Position numbers and translations under genes: made by a program. This document shows, one piece after another, positions 1-48,832 of a DNA stretch of 48,832 bases. Source of the stretch: Methanothermobacter tenebrarum (GTDB taxonomy: Archaea > Methanobacteriota > Methanobacteria > Methanobacteriales > DSM-23052); NCBI RefSeq assembly GCF_003264935.1, contig NZ_QLOE01000012.1, positions 1 through 48,832 on the forward strand, read 5' to 3'. Under the pieces are notes generated by a model. That model was not told the origin of the DNA. It saw only the letters and a list, made by a program, of their open reading frames with translations, and did no database searches. Each line of letters opens with the position of its first letter. Position 1 is the stretch's first letter.

Positions 1-313
1 CACCATACAAACCACCAACACCAGGCAAAGACCTAACAGGCCTCAAATTAACAAACAAATCCAACTCACGCCTGAGTTTAACTATGACATCGGCTGCGGT
101 TTCTCCAGCAGCGCCGAATAAGCAAGCATCTGATTTTTTTATGATCTCTAGGGTTTCATCTGGGAGTGGGTCTCCTGTTTTCTCTGCGCATTCATCTCCA
201 GCCTCTGCGAATTCATATTCAAAATCTAGATCTAGGCCGCCGAGTATGTGAAGTGCGGCGTCCATTACTTCTTTGCCGACTCCGTCTCCTGGTATGACTG
301 CTATTTTGTACAT
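1..313 (-). CDS. leuB: 3-isopropylmalate dehydrogenase, N-terminal 104 residues (cut by window edge)
   Basis: This would oxidise and decarboxylate 3-isopropylmalate to 2-oxoisocaproate with NAD+ in leucine synthesis. I translated the minus strand from the ATG at 313. The product begins MYKIAVIPGDGVGKEV, the usual start of the isocitrate/isopropylmalate dehydrogenase family, and near its end has KLRRELDLFVNLRPV, which matches the substrate-contacting LR..L..N.RP segment of this family. A GGTGA lies about 8 bases before the ATG, and the gene starts only 6 bases after leuD stops, so it is the third gene of the leuC-leuD-leuB operon. Methanogens have a close paralogue, AksF, acting on longer homologues in coenzyme B synthesis. 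The leuD neighbour favours LeuB, but the specificity-determining remainder lies outside the window. Confidence 0.85.
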   Translation of the reverse strand, partial: MYKIAVIPGDGVGKEVMDAALHILGGLDLDFEYEFAEAGDECAEKTGDPLPDETLEIIKKSDACLFGAAGETAADVIVKLRRELDLFVNLRPVRSLPGVGGLYG

Positions 314-2423: not shown

Positions 2424-4739
2424 GTGATTAAAGATTCGCACGTTTTAGCTGCACTTCCTTCAAAAGCAGATATTAGCGTTGAAAAAAACAACGGGATAAG
2501 AGAAAAATTCAGCCACGAAAAACTCGTCAAATCACTATTAATGGTCGGTTCACCACTCTGGGCCGCTGAAAAAATAGCATCAAAAGTCGCCAAATCAGCC
2601 TACGATGGCATCCCCACCAAAGAAATAAAAATGTTAGTATACACTTCACTAAAAGAAATCGACGAAGAAACAGCAGACAAATACCTAGCCGCCAGAAAAT
2701 TAAAAGTTAGAACATCACGTGACACAATAGAATCATTCGACCAGAAAAAGATAGAGAAAAGCCTAATAAAAGAAGCTGGGGCGTCACCGCAACTAGCAAA
2801 GAGAATAGCCACAGAAGTGTGGAAAGAACTTAAAAAACTTGACGTAGAATACCTTACAGCCCCCATGATAAGGGAAATGGTCAACACCAAACTCATCGAA
2901 CACGGCCTAGAAAAACTAAGAAGAAAATACACCAGACTAGGAATACCAGTATACAACATAACAGAACTCATAACCGAAGGCTCCAGGGACAACGCAAACA
3001 TGATACACAACCCAGAAACAGTCCACAAATATGTAGCCGACGAAGCACTCAAACAATACACCCTACTCCACATACTACCACACCGCCTAGCAGACGCACA
3101 CATGTCAGGAGACATCCACATACACGACCTAGAATTCTTCGCAGCCCGACCACTAAACTGCCTACAACATGATCTAAGATTATTCATAAAACACGGCCTC
3201 AGAGTCGACGGCACAGGAGACCACACATCAGTCGCCGGACCTCCAAAACACCTTGAAACCCTCATGAACCATGCCGGAGAGATAATGCTAGCAGCACAAC
3301 AAAACATGTCAGGCGGCCAGGCCATGAGCCTCTGGAACGTATTCGTAGCACCATTCGCCGCCAAACTATCCTATGATGAGATAAAACAAGCAGTGCAAAT
3401 GTTCATATTCAACCTCAACATGGCATACGCCGCAAGAGGGAGCCAAGTCCCATTCACAAGCATAAACCTAGAATTCGCAGTACCAGACTTCCTACTAGAT
3501 GTACCAGCTTACGGGCCCAGAGGCGAACACGTAGGAGTCTACGGAGACTTCTATGAAGAGGCTAGGCAAGTTACAAGGGCATTTACTGAAGTGCTCCTTG
3601 AAGGAGACGCTGATGGCAAACCCCACCTATTCCCGAACACAATCTATGTTATTCGCAGGGAAACCCTCAAGGACGAATTTGAAGATGACCTACACCTTGT
3701 ACATGAATTAGCTGCTAAGTATGGGACAGCATACTTTGTTAACATGCTAGCAGATTACAGGGGCGAAATGTCCAATTACATGGGGTGCAGAACACTCCTA
3801 TCAGATAACTGGACAGGAGACTGGGAAAAAGATTGTCTCAGAACAGGAAACCTTGCATATGTAACATTAAACCTTCCAAGAATAGCCTACCAGGCAAAAG
3901 ACGACGATGAGATATTCGATTATCTAGACGAATACCTAGATCTTGCAATAGACGTGTTAAAATTGAGAAGAAAACAGGCTCTTGAATGTCTAAATGACTA
4001 TAATTTATTACCATTCCTCACACAAGAGATTGAAGGCGAAAACTATTATAGGATAGAAAATGCAACCCTAAGCTTTGGATACGTCGGCCTAAACGAAATG
4101 TTAGAATATCATACAGGAAACAGCATCACAGATCCTGATGCCAACAAATTCGGACTCAAGGTAATAAAATATTTATATGAACGCGCCCAGGAACTCAAAA
4201 AAGAAACAGGACTGCGATGGAGCGTCCTACAGACGCCAGCCGAGAGCACAGCCCACAGATTCGCAATGCTAGACAGTGAATTACACAGTGAAAAGGCCAT
4301 ACTCCAAGGAAAGGAAGACTCATACTATTATACCAATTCAAGTCACGTTCCAGTAGACTCCGAAGTAGATATTGTGAAAAAGATAAGAATAGAGGAAAAA
4401 TATCATCCACTGACACCAGGAGGACATATATTCCATGCATGGCTTGGAGAAGCACAACCAGACGCCCAAGCCCTCCAAAAATTCACAAAAAACATCTGCA
4501 AAAATACAGACATAGGATTCTGGGCCTACAGCAACACCCTAAGCTTCTGTCTCAGATGTAAAACCCTAATGAGAGGACTCCAGGAGACCTGCGCTAACTG
4601 CGGCGAAAAAGATGAAGTAGAATGGTACGACCGCATAACAGGATACGTGCAACAGGTCGGAAGAGCCAAATCATCAAGCGGAGGATGGAACAAAGGGAAA
4701 AGACAAGAACTACTCGACAGAAAACGCTACAACCTATAA
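2424..4739 (+). CDS. nrdD: Anaerobic ribonucleoside-triphosphate reductase (class III, glycyl radical)
   Basis: Makes deoxyribonucleotides for DNA synthesis without oxygen, using a glycyl radical generated by a separate activase (NrdG, not in this window). The 771 residues start with two ATP-cone-like domains (about 20-100 and 105-185), allosteric nucleotide sites, followed by the 10-stranded barrel. The C-terminus has a zinc site of two CxxC pairs (CLRCKTL... and CANCGEKD), then RITGYVQQVG with the likely radical glycine at Gly740, and the closing NKGKRQELLDRK, which parallels the NAGK tail of E. coli NrdD. The GTG start at 2424 follows GGTGAT with 6 bases between. Two ATP cones rather than one is a point to note, since they may give layered allosteric control. 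The archaemetzincin gene follows 18 bases later. Confidence 0.93.
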   Translation: MIKDSHVLAALPSKADISVEKNNGIREKFSHEKLVKSLLMVGSPLWAAEKIASKVAKSAYDGIPTKEIKMLVYTSLKEIDEETADKYLAARKLKVRTSRDTIESFDQKKIEKSLIKEAGASPQLAKRIATEVWKELKKLDVEYLTAPMIREMVNTKLIEHGLEKLRRKYTRLGIPVYNITELITEGSRDNANMIHNPETVHKYVADEALKQYTLLHILPHRLADAHMSGDIHIHDLEFFAARPLNCLQHDLRLFIKHGLRVDGTGDHTSVAGPPKHLETLMNHAGEIMLAAQQNMSGGQAMSLWNVFVAPFAAKLSYDEIKQAVQMFIFNLNMAYAARGSQVPFTSINLEFAVPDFLLDVPAYGPRGEHVGVYGDFYEEARQVTRAFTEVLLEGDADGKPHLFPNTIYVIRRETLKDEFEDDLHLVHELAAKYGTAYFVNMLADYRGEMSNYMGCRTLLSDNWTGDWEKDCLRTGNLAYVTLNLPRIAYQAKDDDEIFDYLDEYLDLAIDVLKLRRKQALECLNDYNLLPFLTQEIEGENYYRIENATLSFGYVGLNEMLEYHTGNSITDPDANKFGLKVIKYLYERAQELKKETGLRWSVLQTPAESTAHRFAMLDSELHSEKAILQGKEDSYYYTNSSHVPVDSEVDIVKKIRIEEKYHPLTPGGHIFHAWLGEAQPDAQALQKFTKNICKNTDIGFWAYSNTLSFCLRCKTLMRGLQETCANCGEKDEVEWYDRITGYVQQVGRAKSSSGGWNKGKRQELLDRKRYNL

Positions 4740-17738: not shown

Positions 17739-19121
17739 ATGAAAAGGGAAATATTAGATGAATATGAGAAGATAAAAGATAAAATTTCAAAGGAAGAGTT
17801 CCTAAAACAGCTTGAAGAAAGAAAAAAAGAATACGATGTAGGTTTCATCGATGAGGTTGACATAGCCCATATGATAGTAGGCGAGTACTTAAACCAAGAA
17901 AACAAACCATTATCAGAAAGGGAGTATAAGATCGCTGATATAGCGGAAATGGAGGGAGCTGATCGGAACCTTAAAATTATAGGTAGAGTCCTCAGAATAT
18001 CCAATATAAGGAGCTTCATTAACCGTGCCGGGAAAGAGGGGAAAGTAGCGAATGTCCTATTAGCAGATGAAACCAGGAAGATAAGGGCGGTATTCTGGAC
18101 ACCTAATATAAAGTTACTCAAGAAATTCAAAGAAGGAGACATAATCCAAATAGAAGGTTTCCAAGTGAGAGGGGGTTTCGCAGGTAGAAAAGAGATCCAC
18201 TTACAACCTCGCGCCACAATAAAAGTATTAGACCCGGAAGATCACCCAAACATCCCAGAATACAAGGAAGAAATAACACCCATAGCCGAAATCAAAGAAG
18301 AAGACGAAGAAGTCAACATTATAGCGAGGATAACCCGCATATCAAGGATAAGAACCTTCGAAAGGAATGGTAGGGAAGGCAAAATCGCATCAATGGAACT
18401 AAAAGACGAAACAGGGAAAATAACCTACACCCTTTGGAACAGGGACACAGAACTTATAAAAAACCTCCCCTTGAAAGAAGGTGACGCCATAAAAGTACTA
18501 GGCGCCCAAACAAGAAAAAGGGAAGGAGAAGTCTACTTAACCCATCATGGACTTACAAGGATTATAAAAGGAGACTTCAAAGTCCCTGAGGTGGAAGAGA
18601 AAATATTAAAAATAGGGGACCTCCACGAGGAAAGAGACGTGAACGTAATCGGCCTCGTTACAAAAGTCCACGATAAAATAAACTTTGAAAGAGCCGATGG
18701 GACAACAGGATCCCTAAGATCCCTTGAGATAATGGATGATACAGGAGCTGTTAGAGTAACACTATGGCACGAAGACGCGGACCTAGACATAAAAAAGGGT
18801 GATATAATAAAAATAGAAGGCGGGAATGTTGAATTTGACAATTACACATCATCCTATCGTATAAACACAAACTGGAACACTAGGATAACCATAAACCCTG
18901 AAGAGGACACAGGACTCATAAAAGTCCTAAAAGAATATAGGGAACATTTAAAACCTGCGAAGATATCCTCAATACTGGAAATGGAGGATGAAGGCGAAGA
19001 AGTTGATGTGGTCGGCCGCATATTATCACTAAGAGACCCTAGGGAATTTCAAAGGGAGGATGGTGTAGGTATATTCAGGAGCATGGAGTTGGCAGATGAC
19101 ACAGGCGTCATAAGACCCTAG
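17739..19121 (+). CDS. rpa: Replication protein A, N-terminal part (frame broken by 79-bp duplication)
   Basis: Binds single-stranded DNA in replication and repair. This 460-residue part has three complete OB folds, about 70-165, 180-275 and 290-385, each with the pattern of V.G.V strands, a D(E/D)TG turn followed by hydrophobic strand and LW, and a KEGD/KKGD loop. A fourth OB fold begins near 415 and runs as far as DDTGVIRP before a TAG stop. The stop is created by a tandem duplication of 79 bases (19037-19115 and 19116-19194). Because 79 is not a multiple of three, the frame shifts, and CCCTAGGG now supplies TAG. Removing one copy would join this to the frame at 19162-20178, giving one protein of about 786 residues. 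Either the gene is really split, or the duplication is an assembly error. Confidence 0.85.
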   Translation: MKREILDEYEKIKDKISKEEFLKQLEERKKEYDVGFIDEVDIAHMIVGEYLNQENKPLSEREYKIADIAEMEGADRNLKIIGRVLRISNIRSFINRAGKEGKVANVLLADETRKIRAVFWTPNIKLLKKFKEGDIIQIEGFQVRGGFAGRKEIHLQPRATIKVLDPEDHPNIPEYKEEITPIAEIKEEDEEVNIIARITRISRIRTFERNGREGKIASMELKDETGKITYTLWNRDTELIKNLPLKEGDAIKVLGAQTRKREGEVYLTHHGLTRIIKGDFKVPEVEEKILKIGDLHEERDVNVIGLVTKVHDKINFERADGTTGSLRSLEIMDDTGAVRVTLWHEDADLDIKKGDIIKIEGGNVEFDNYTSSYRINTNWNTRITINPEEDTGLIKVLKEYREHLKPAKISSILEMEDEGEEVDVVGRILSLRDPREFQREDGVGIFRSMELADDTGVIRP

Positions 19122-19194
19122 GGAATTTCAAAGGGAGGATGGTGTAGGTATATTCAGGAGCATGGAGTTGGCAGATGACACAGGCGTCATAAGA
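19037..19194 (+). repeat. Perfect tandem duplication, 2 x 79 bp, disrupting the RPA frame
   Basis: The unit starting CCCTAGGGAATTTCAAAGGG at 19037 is repeated without a change at 19116, with no spacer. The exact boundaries can slide by three bases. A third partial copy occurs at 19465 in the next OB fold. Recombination or slippage between the two units would restore the frame. Confidence 0.95.
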
Positions 19195-20178
19195 GTCACA
19201 TTATGGGATGATAAAGCAACCACATCATTAAAAGTAGGAGACGCTATAAGAATAGAAAATGCTAGAATCCGATTGGGCCTATATGACATTGAATTAAGTG
19301 TGGGTAAAACCGCAAGGATAATGAAACCCCTCCCAGAGGACGTGAAGGAGCTCCCAAGCATGGAAGAACTTGAAGATGTTATCTACACCACCAAGAAAAT
19401 TGATGAGATAGAGGAGGATGACAGGAGAATAAAGATTGTCGGGAGAGTCATCGACCTTTACGAGCCTAGGGAATTTCAAAGGGAGGATGGTGTAGGTATA
19501 TTCAGGAGCATGGAGTTGGCAGATGACACAGGCGTCATAAGAGTCACATTATGGGATGAGAAGGCAGACACACCCCTCAACATAGGGGATGCTGTGAAAA
19601 TAGAAAACCCCCGTGTAAGATATAGAAACGAGAATCTTGAACTTAGTTTGGGTCGAGATTCCCAGATAGAAGTTATCAAAGGAGAAGTCGAGGATTTACC
19701 CAGTTTCGAGGAAATAGAGGAGATGGTTTACCCATATAAGAGTATAGGCGACCTTGATGAGGAGTCCGAGAATGTGAAAATTTCGGGGGAATTAACAGAC
19801 CTTTATGGTGATAGAATAGTATCATATCGTTGTCCAAGGTGTAACACGCGCCTTGATGTCAGCGAGGAAAATATATGCAATTTCTGTGGCGAGGTAATAG
19901 ATGAACCACGCCACCTACTCATAATACCCGGCCGGATCACTGATGAGACCGGAGAAATAAGGATAACATTCTTTGGAAGAGAAGCCGAAAAATTGCTTGG
20001 AATGAAAACAGAGGAAGTAGTGGATGTGATTAACAAGACAGGTGATGAAGGGGCTTTACATGATAAAGTTGAAGATCTTAATGGCGTGCATGTAACTGTA
20101 ATAGGGAATGCGAATTTCGATGAATATAATGAAGAATTAAGATTCAATCCCAAAAAGATTGTGGATATCAAATTTTAA
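19162..20178 (+). CDS. rpa: Replication protein A, C-terminal part (OB folds 4-5 and zinc-finger domain)
   Basis: 338 residues if started at the ATG at 19162; in frame the coding potential reaches back to 19114. It supplies the rest of OB fold 4, a complete OB fold 5 (about 95-190) and a C-terminal OB-like region interrupted by a zinc finger, YRCPRCNTRL with CNFCGE near 220-245, as in archaeal RPA and eukaryotic RPA70. AGGAG sits only one base before the ATG, so independent initiation would be poor but not excluded. In the undisrupted form this would be continuous with the preceding frame. RadA follows 21 bases downstream, fitting a recombination and repair operon. Confidence 0.82.
   Translation: MELADDTGVIRVTLWDDKATTSLKVGDAIRIENARIRLGLYDIELSVGKTARIMKPLPEDVKELPSMEELEDVIYTTKKIDEIEEDDRRIKIVGRVIDLYEPREFQREDGVGIFRSMELADDTGVIRVTLWDEKADTPLNIGDAVKIENPRVRYRNENLELSLGRDSQIEVIKGEVEDLPSFEEIEEMVYPYKSIGDLDEESENVKISGELTDLYGDRIVSYRCPRCNTRLDVSEENICNFCGEVIDEPRHLLIIPGRITDETGEIRITFFGREAEKLLGMKTEEVVDVINKTGDEGALHDKVEDLNGVHVTVIGNANFDEYNEELRFNPKKIVDIKF
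19465..19559 (+). repeat. 95-bp segment identical to 19117-19211 (OB-fold repeat)
   Basis: The bases from CCTAGGGAATTTC through to ATTATGGGATGA are identical at 19117-19211 and 19465-19559, an offset of 348 bases or 116 codons, one OB-fold repeat. Flanking sequence of the two folds has clearly diverged, so the identity suggests recent gene conversion between the repeats. Confidence 0.9.
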
Positions 20179-47466: not shown

Positions 47467-48832
47467 TTTGGTAGATAGTATGGATTCCCATCCCAGAAAC
47501 TACTATCGATGAGACCATACCTGAAAAGCACGTAGCCAGTTGCCCCACCATTAAACGCGGCCATTATATCCGATTCAAGCTCCGCTTTGGGGATTGGTGT
47601 TGGATCGGAATCTGATCTATAAGTTTGTAAACCTGTCCACACTTCTTTCCCGCCGCACCTGTTCTTCACATACTCTGTCACTTCTTCTATCCAAGCTGTT
47701 GTCTCATAATAGTTACCCTTGTATGCCATTGGGATGAGCACGTCAAGATATGGCGCAAGCCGACCGTAATCCTGGCCATAAAGGTAAGCATTTGATGTTT
47801 CTTCTGGCATTAGCGCCGCTGATACTAGAATCGCTGGATTAACGCTTTTCACGGTCTCATATATTCTCTGAACCACTCCTGTTATAATATCTGTCGCATT
47901 TGGGAACTTATAGGCAGTTCCTGGATAGCGGATATAGTCAAGGTGGATACCACCAACACCCTGAAAACTTAGAAGCTCTTGAACCCTGTTTATCAATTTT
48001 TCAATATGGGATTCATTTGTGGGATCAACCCAATCACCGTTTTCTCGCAGACAGATTACCCATGCACTTACACGAATACCAGCATCTGAAGCGCCTTTAA
48101 GGAAGTTCAGAAGCGCAGTCCTATATTCCATCTTGGTGAAGGCCTGCTGTTCCAAGAATATATCTGTTATACCCTTATTCTTAAGGGCGGCGAAATTAAC
48201 CTTGTCCATGGTATAAGCATGAACCCATATCGCACCATGTGCTATTGGACCTTCATTATTTTTTATATTAATTACTGTCACGTAATTTGGTAGTCTTCCG
48301 TTGGTGTTGTAGAAGTTTATTATCCTGCTGTAGGCGTAGATTAGGCTTTGGTAGTTTACTTTACCAATGCTCGTACTAACATAATCAGGGGATCTTTTGT
48401 TGGTTTCCATGAATTTTTTGATGCTTTGGGCCATTTGCAAATATTCTGTCTTTGTTAGCGTCCCAATCGCTGTGGTCTTCAATGGATCCGTCGGCGATTT
48501 ATAATTATTAATAGGTACACTTATTTTCTGGTTAATGTTTAAGTTTATTGTTGTGGTTACTGCAGCGTATAAGTAATCATCTGATGTTATGTTCCTATTG
48601 TTTACCACGATCTTGGAGGGTATCCCACAATTTTGACTTACATAACTTGTTATTGCTCTAGCAATTGAAGATATCTCATTATATGATAACTGGGGCGTTG
48701 ATGTACTTGGTATAGTGCTGATTTTCACATTTTTTATTGTCACAGAACTTGGTAGTCTTCCGTTGGTGTTGTAGAAGTTTATTATCCTGCTGTAGGCGTA
48801 GATTAGGCTTTGGTAGTTTATTTTGCCAATGC
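47463..48832 (-). CDS. Cell-wall protein with pseudomurein-binding repeats and glycoside hydrolase-like domain (5' end outside window)
   Basis: The frame is open to the window edge, so the N-terminus, with any signal peptide, is missing; a GTG at 48743 is internal and not a credible start. The visible part has at least two complete pseudomurein-binding-type repeats and part of a third (patterns such as [20 protein letters not shown] and LPNYV), which hold proteins to the methanogen wall. A C-terminal domain from about 170 residues before the middle to the end has [22 protein letters not shown] and [12 protein letters not shown], the marks of the GHL10/DUF4015-type glycoside hydrolase-like barrel, with the Asp of LDYIRYP a likely active-site residue. 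Hydrolysis of pseudomurein or another wall glycan is plausible but unproven. Confidence 0.75.
48287..48370 (-). repeat. 84-bp repeat within the wall-protein gene, copy 1 of 2 (copy 2 at 48749-48832)
   Basis: Bases 48287-48370 match 48749-48832 at 82 of 84 positions. The offset is 462 bases (154 codons), so both encode the same pseudomurein-binding motif. The match ends only because the window ends, so the repeat may be longer. Confidence 0.9.

Follow-up and report, generated by a model that had tools for sequence, protein, structure and literature searches.

A 79-bp tandem duplication that splits the replication protein A gene of Methanothermobacter tenebrarum as a very probable assembly artefact

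The closest known counterparts of the locus analysed here are the archaeal replication protein A (RPA) of the Methanobacteriales, as captured in the NCBIfam profile NF009030 (replication factor A), and, at the level of the assembly, the un-merged k-mer overlap in de Bruijn assembly. With the former, the gene that we describe shares the coverage of the profile, the C-terminal domain, the zinc finger and the neighbouring gene, the recA-like radA, which lies directly 3' of RPA here and likewise in relatives. It differs in being interrupted, whereas the gene is continuous in two genomes of the same genus and in nearly all other relatives examined. The literature on archaeal RPA that our search covered, including PMC8329085, holds no mention of a split gene. 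With the un-merged overlap the locus shares a repeated word of length k or k+2, a position at the edge of a natural repeat and the occurrence of several such sites in one assembly; our literature search found no paper describing exactly this un-merged-overlap error. The window, i.e. the whole stretch of 48,832 nucleotides that was analysed, is all of one contig (C12) of a 20-contig assembly (G000).

An interrupted RPA gene

The gene is present in the window as two parts:

17739..19121, plus strand: 5' part of RPA, 460 aa, with OB folds 1 and 2 and most of OB fold 3, terminated by a TAG that the frame shift creates; matches positions 3-466 of the 796 of NF009030
19114..20178, plus strand: 3' part of RPA, with the rest of OB fold 3, OB fold 4 and the zinc-finger C-terminal OB domain; matches positions 456-795 of the 796 of NF009030, and PF08646 (Rep_fac-A_C)

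Jointly the two parts span positions 3-795 of the profile, and they carry the several OB folds and the C-terminal zinc-finger OB domain (CxxC..CxxC together with PF08646, in the 3' part) that mark an archaeal RPA. Neither part reaches the profile cut-off of 1147 bits on its own (626 and 482 bits, respectively), because the gene is interrupted. The open frame of the 3' part comprises 354 codons, and a start at its first ATG (19162) gives 338 aa.

At the interruption, self-comparison of the window showed two identical 79-nt units in direct tandem (19037-19115 and 19116-19194). Since 79 is not divisible by 3, the RPA frame is shifted and ends at the TAG at 19119-19121. Tandem Repeats Finder, run on the window, reported 19034-19194 with period 79 and a match of 100%, which is the maximal period-79 run; the extra 3 nt (AGA) are a flank common to both units. 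In the letters of the assembly, this tandem goes far beyond what chance would produce, but it finds no support as a property of the organism.

The original prediction, made from the sequence, thus described the locus correctly: the call of RPA agrees with the profile match of both parts, the 79-bp tandem at 19037-19194 is indeed perfect, the frame shift and TAG do split the protein into 460 and about 338 residues, and the similar third copy noted at 19465 is a 95-nt exact match that is part of the next OB fold. It had further proposed a comparison of the gene in close relatives, and this comparison yielded one copy at the OB fold 3 site and one intact frame (786-788 aa) in both G001 and G002, which belong to the same genus. 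In a third genome of the genus (G003), contig C148 ends at base 4553 inside the OB fold 3 repeat, with one copy in the fragment, so the RPA repeat appears to have troubled that assembly as well. No variation in copy number at the RPA site was thus found among these relatives (G001, G002 and the G003 fragment).

In more distant Methanobacteriales the RPA frame is continuous, with the exception of G016, a single-contig genome of 1,751,377 bp from a related genus, in which RPA likewise consists of two overlapping frames (625 and 196 codons). The G016 split differs in place and in kind from that of M. tenebrarum: it stems from a single additional base in the OB fold 4 region, as seen against G004. 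This base may reflect a real frameshift, or else an error of sequencing in an old genome; the two frames of G016 are not evidence for a functional split.

Period and boundaries of the duplication

We found eight pairs of contig ends in the assembly that share exactly 77 nt. The two ends of the window belong to such pairs:

1..77, no strand: left contig end, 77 nt exactly in common with an end of C15; points to k=77
48756..48832, no strand: right contig end, 77 nt exactly in common with an end of C16; points to k=77

Exact sharing of 77 nt between ends indicates a de Bruijn graph with k=77, in which adjoining contigs keep their common vertex k-mer. For reads of about 100-150 nt, SPAdes commonly uses 77 as its largest k. 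Two further features of contig ends were observed. The left ends of C4 and C13 share 154 nt (2 x 77), in contrast to the exactly 77 nt of the other pairs, which is perhaps another effect of the handling of overlaps. Near the right end of the window there is a 72-nt exact repeat (48287-48358 and 48749-48820), also in common with ends of C13 and C16, because of which the contig stops there.

With k=77 known, the duplication can be laid out as follows, V being a 77-mer of the assembly graph:

19038..19114, plus strand: first copy of V, identical to 19117-19193 and 19465-19541
19115..19116, plus strand: false join, consisting of the A that truly follows V and the C that truly precedes V, so that the period is k+2 = 79; arranged alike at C17:2658
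19117..19193, plus strand: second copy of V
19117..19211, plus strand: natural repeat of 95 nt, copy in OB fold 3, of which V is the first 77 nt
19465..19559, plus strand: natural repeat of 95 nt, exact copy in OB fold 4, at an offset of 348 nt

The tract and its 348-nt offset are also present in the RPA genes of G001 and G002. The natural repeat exceeds k, which would make its first 77-mer, V, a branching vertex of the graph. A piece ending with V would then have been set beside a piece starting with V, both extended by a single base where they meet, and the common word, left unmerged, would have been written twice, adding 79 nt, shifting the frame and creating the TAG. Either the assembler or a later joining step would be responsible, with scaffolding, path joining, polishing and gap closing as candidates. 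We also considered, and rejected, that the assembler had only taken a wrong path through the 95-nt repeat: the length gained or lost in this way would be that of the 348-nt loop, whereas the observed gain is 79 nt, which calls for an un-merged overlap.

One observation runs counter to such an artefact, namely the 3-nt AGA flank at the join, as a real event at a microhomology could also give. The duplication might accordingly have arisen recently in the culture that was sequenced, by slippage or through this microhomology, and be tolerated if the two halves fold and act as subunits of their own, or if translation starts again further downstream. Both halves do keep recognisable RPA domains and a restart is possible at the ATG at 19162, but the sole AGGAG before this ATG precedes it by one base, a spacing too short for a usual ribosome-binding site, the duplication is absent from the two relatives of the same genus, and RPA is expected to be essential. 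We consider a real and tolerated duplication very unlikely, all the more in view of what was found at other places in the same assembly.

Comparable tandems in the same assembly

We scanned the assembly (1,463,100 bases in 18 contigs, with two small contigs masked at their ends) for tandems with a period of 60-260 and an identity of at least 93%. Only four were found, all of them perfect and two-copy:

C1:42990-43143: period 77; the repeated 77-mer is the first 77 nt of a 91-nt natural repeat
C7:81481-81634: period 77; the repeated 77-mer is the last 77 nt of a 136-nt natural repeat
C12:19034 (RPA): period 79; the repeated 77-mer is the first 77 nt of a 95-nt natural repeat
C17:2658-2815: period 79; the repeated 77-mer is the last 77 nt of a 142-nt natural repeat

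Every period thus equals k or k+2, k having been measured independently from the contig ends, and none is a multiple of 3. In both cases of period 79, the doubled word is the 77-mer plus the true preceding and the true following base, i.e. k+2. The natural repeats behind the tandems all (4/4) have another copy on the same contig, and at each of the four loci the repeated 77-mer is the exact edge of a natural repeat longer than k, which makes it a branching vertex of the k=77 graph. For four real duplications with periods distributed uniformly between 60 and 260, the probability of finding a period of 77 or 79 in every case is about (2/200)^4, near 1e-8, a figure that leaves the coincidence with the edges of natural repeats uncounted. 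The sister genome G002, which is a single contig, served as a control: in 0.8 Mb of it we found two tandems of this type, whose periods (66 and 231) are divisible by 3.

Reading frames are broken at all four loci. The tandem on C1 cuts a gene of the phosphoglucomutase/phosphomannomutase family inside domain II, the one on C7 a large DUF3344/CARDB protein and the one on C17 a TPR-repeat protein. For two of these loci, the relatives are informative: when aligned to G001, the two parts of the C1 locus overlap in the target by exactly 77 nt (173224-173300), and the same holds for those of the C7 locus against G002 (349789-349865), so that there is a single copy in G001 and G002, respectively, as was found for RPA in both genomes. 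At the C17 locus, the TPR repeats keep the relatives from deciding the copy state.

These results bear on all other explanations. For a real duplication in culture, the agreement of period and boundaries with the k of the assembler and with the edge of a natural repeat, at RPA as well as at three further loci, would have to be accidental. A reversible switch has also been proposed, in which cells of the population would change between split and intact RPA by gaining or losing one 79-bp unit; losing one unit would indeed restore the frame and, judged from its letters, a perfect repeat could recombine. Yet the duplicated state occurs in no relative, selection would hardly favour turning off an essential gene, and three unrelated loci with periods linked to k would be left unexplained, so that we give this switch a negligible chance. 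Equally negligible is the chance that a mixed population or true recombinant reads between OB folds 3 and 4 (natural variants or PCR chimeras) gave the join, with the letters taken from a rare molecule: sequence exchange between the two folds is evident over evolutionary time, but exchange between folds gives offsets of 348 nt and not 79, and it would leave the tandems of period 77 or 79 on C1, C7 and C17 unaccounted for. Duplication at a microhomology and phase switching were both rejected as candidates, a like event having taken place at four loci with periods tied to k.

The original prediction had offered three options. For the first, an assembly artefact to which the third copy contributed, the support is strong and comes from the k+2 period, the three sister tandems, the repeat edges and the single-copy relatives; the others, a tolerated mutation and a reversible switch, found no support and would each need several independent coincidences. 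We therefore put the probability that the 79-bp tandem in RPA is an assembly artefact, i.e. an un-merged k-mer overlap at a branching de Bruijn vertex, at about 97%, and we expect the organism itself to have a single copy of the unit and an uninterrupted RPA gene. That the duplication is real in culture and that this archaeon lives with, or switches to, a two-piece RPA split inside OB fold 3 is correspondingly hard to believe, and slightly more so than a real and tolerated duplication taken by itself.

Concerted change of OB folds 3 and 4, and implications

The natural repeat behind the artefact showed a pattern of its own. Within the 95-nt tract, OB folds 3 and 4 of the same gene are identical at 95/95 positions in M. 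tenebrarum, 92/95 in G001 and 81/95 in G002, and orthologous folds at 87-88/95 between M. tenebrarum and G001 and at 74-78/95 against G002. The paralogous folds of one genome thus match each other at least as well as orthologous folds match between genomes. Just downstream of the tract this relation is reversed (41-48/75 for the paralogues and 62-68/75 for the orthologues). In line with this, the two folds of M. tenebrarum pair together in a tree of the tract, as do those of G002 (support 0.98), and a tree of the downstream stretch groups the sequences by fold. The perfect identity in M. tenebrarum is drawn from the assembly that bears the artefact, but G001 and G002 give the pattern independently. 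OB folds 3 and 4 of RPA look like they evolve in concert over about 95 nt in this genus, a pattern that suggests repeated gene conversion within the gene, confined to roughly 100 nt. In a neighbouring genus (g2) the two folds clearly differ in protein sequence (e.g. DPREFERQDGTGIVRSMELADETG versus DPREFQRGDGTPGLVRTVEFADDTG); ungapped identities between the folds of that genus (35-39/95) were left out of the comparison, as OB fold 4 has one additional codon there and the two are out of register.

For M. tenebrarum, the main consequence is that a false claim of a split essential gene is removed. Annotations of this assembly are affected, in the form of pseudogenes, split genes and apparent absence of genes, with frames broken at four places, and among the four broken loci there are at least two conserved housekeeping genes. 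The findings also provide a simple screen, in which an exact tandem that has a period of k or k+2 and lies where a longer natural repeat begins or ends is treated first as an assembly error. The tandem in RPA is of low biological interest, its use being that of a clear and testable signature of such an error; the repeat that points to gene conversion between OB folds 3 and 4 is the modest but real observation that is left over.
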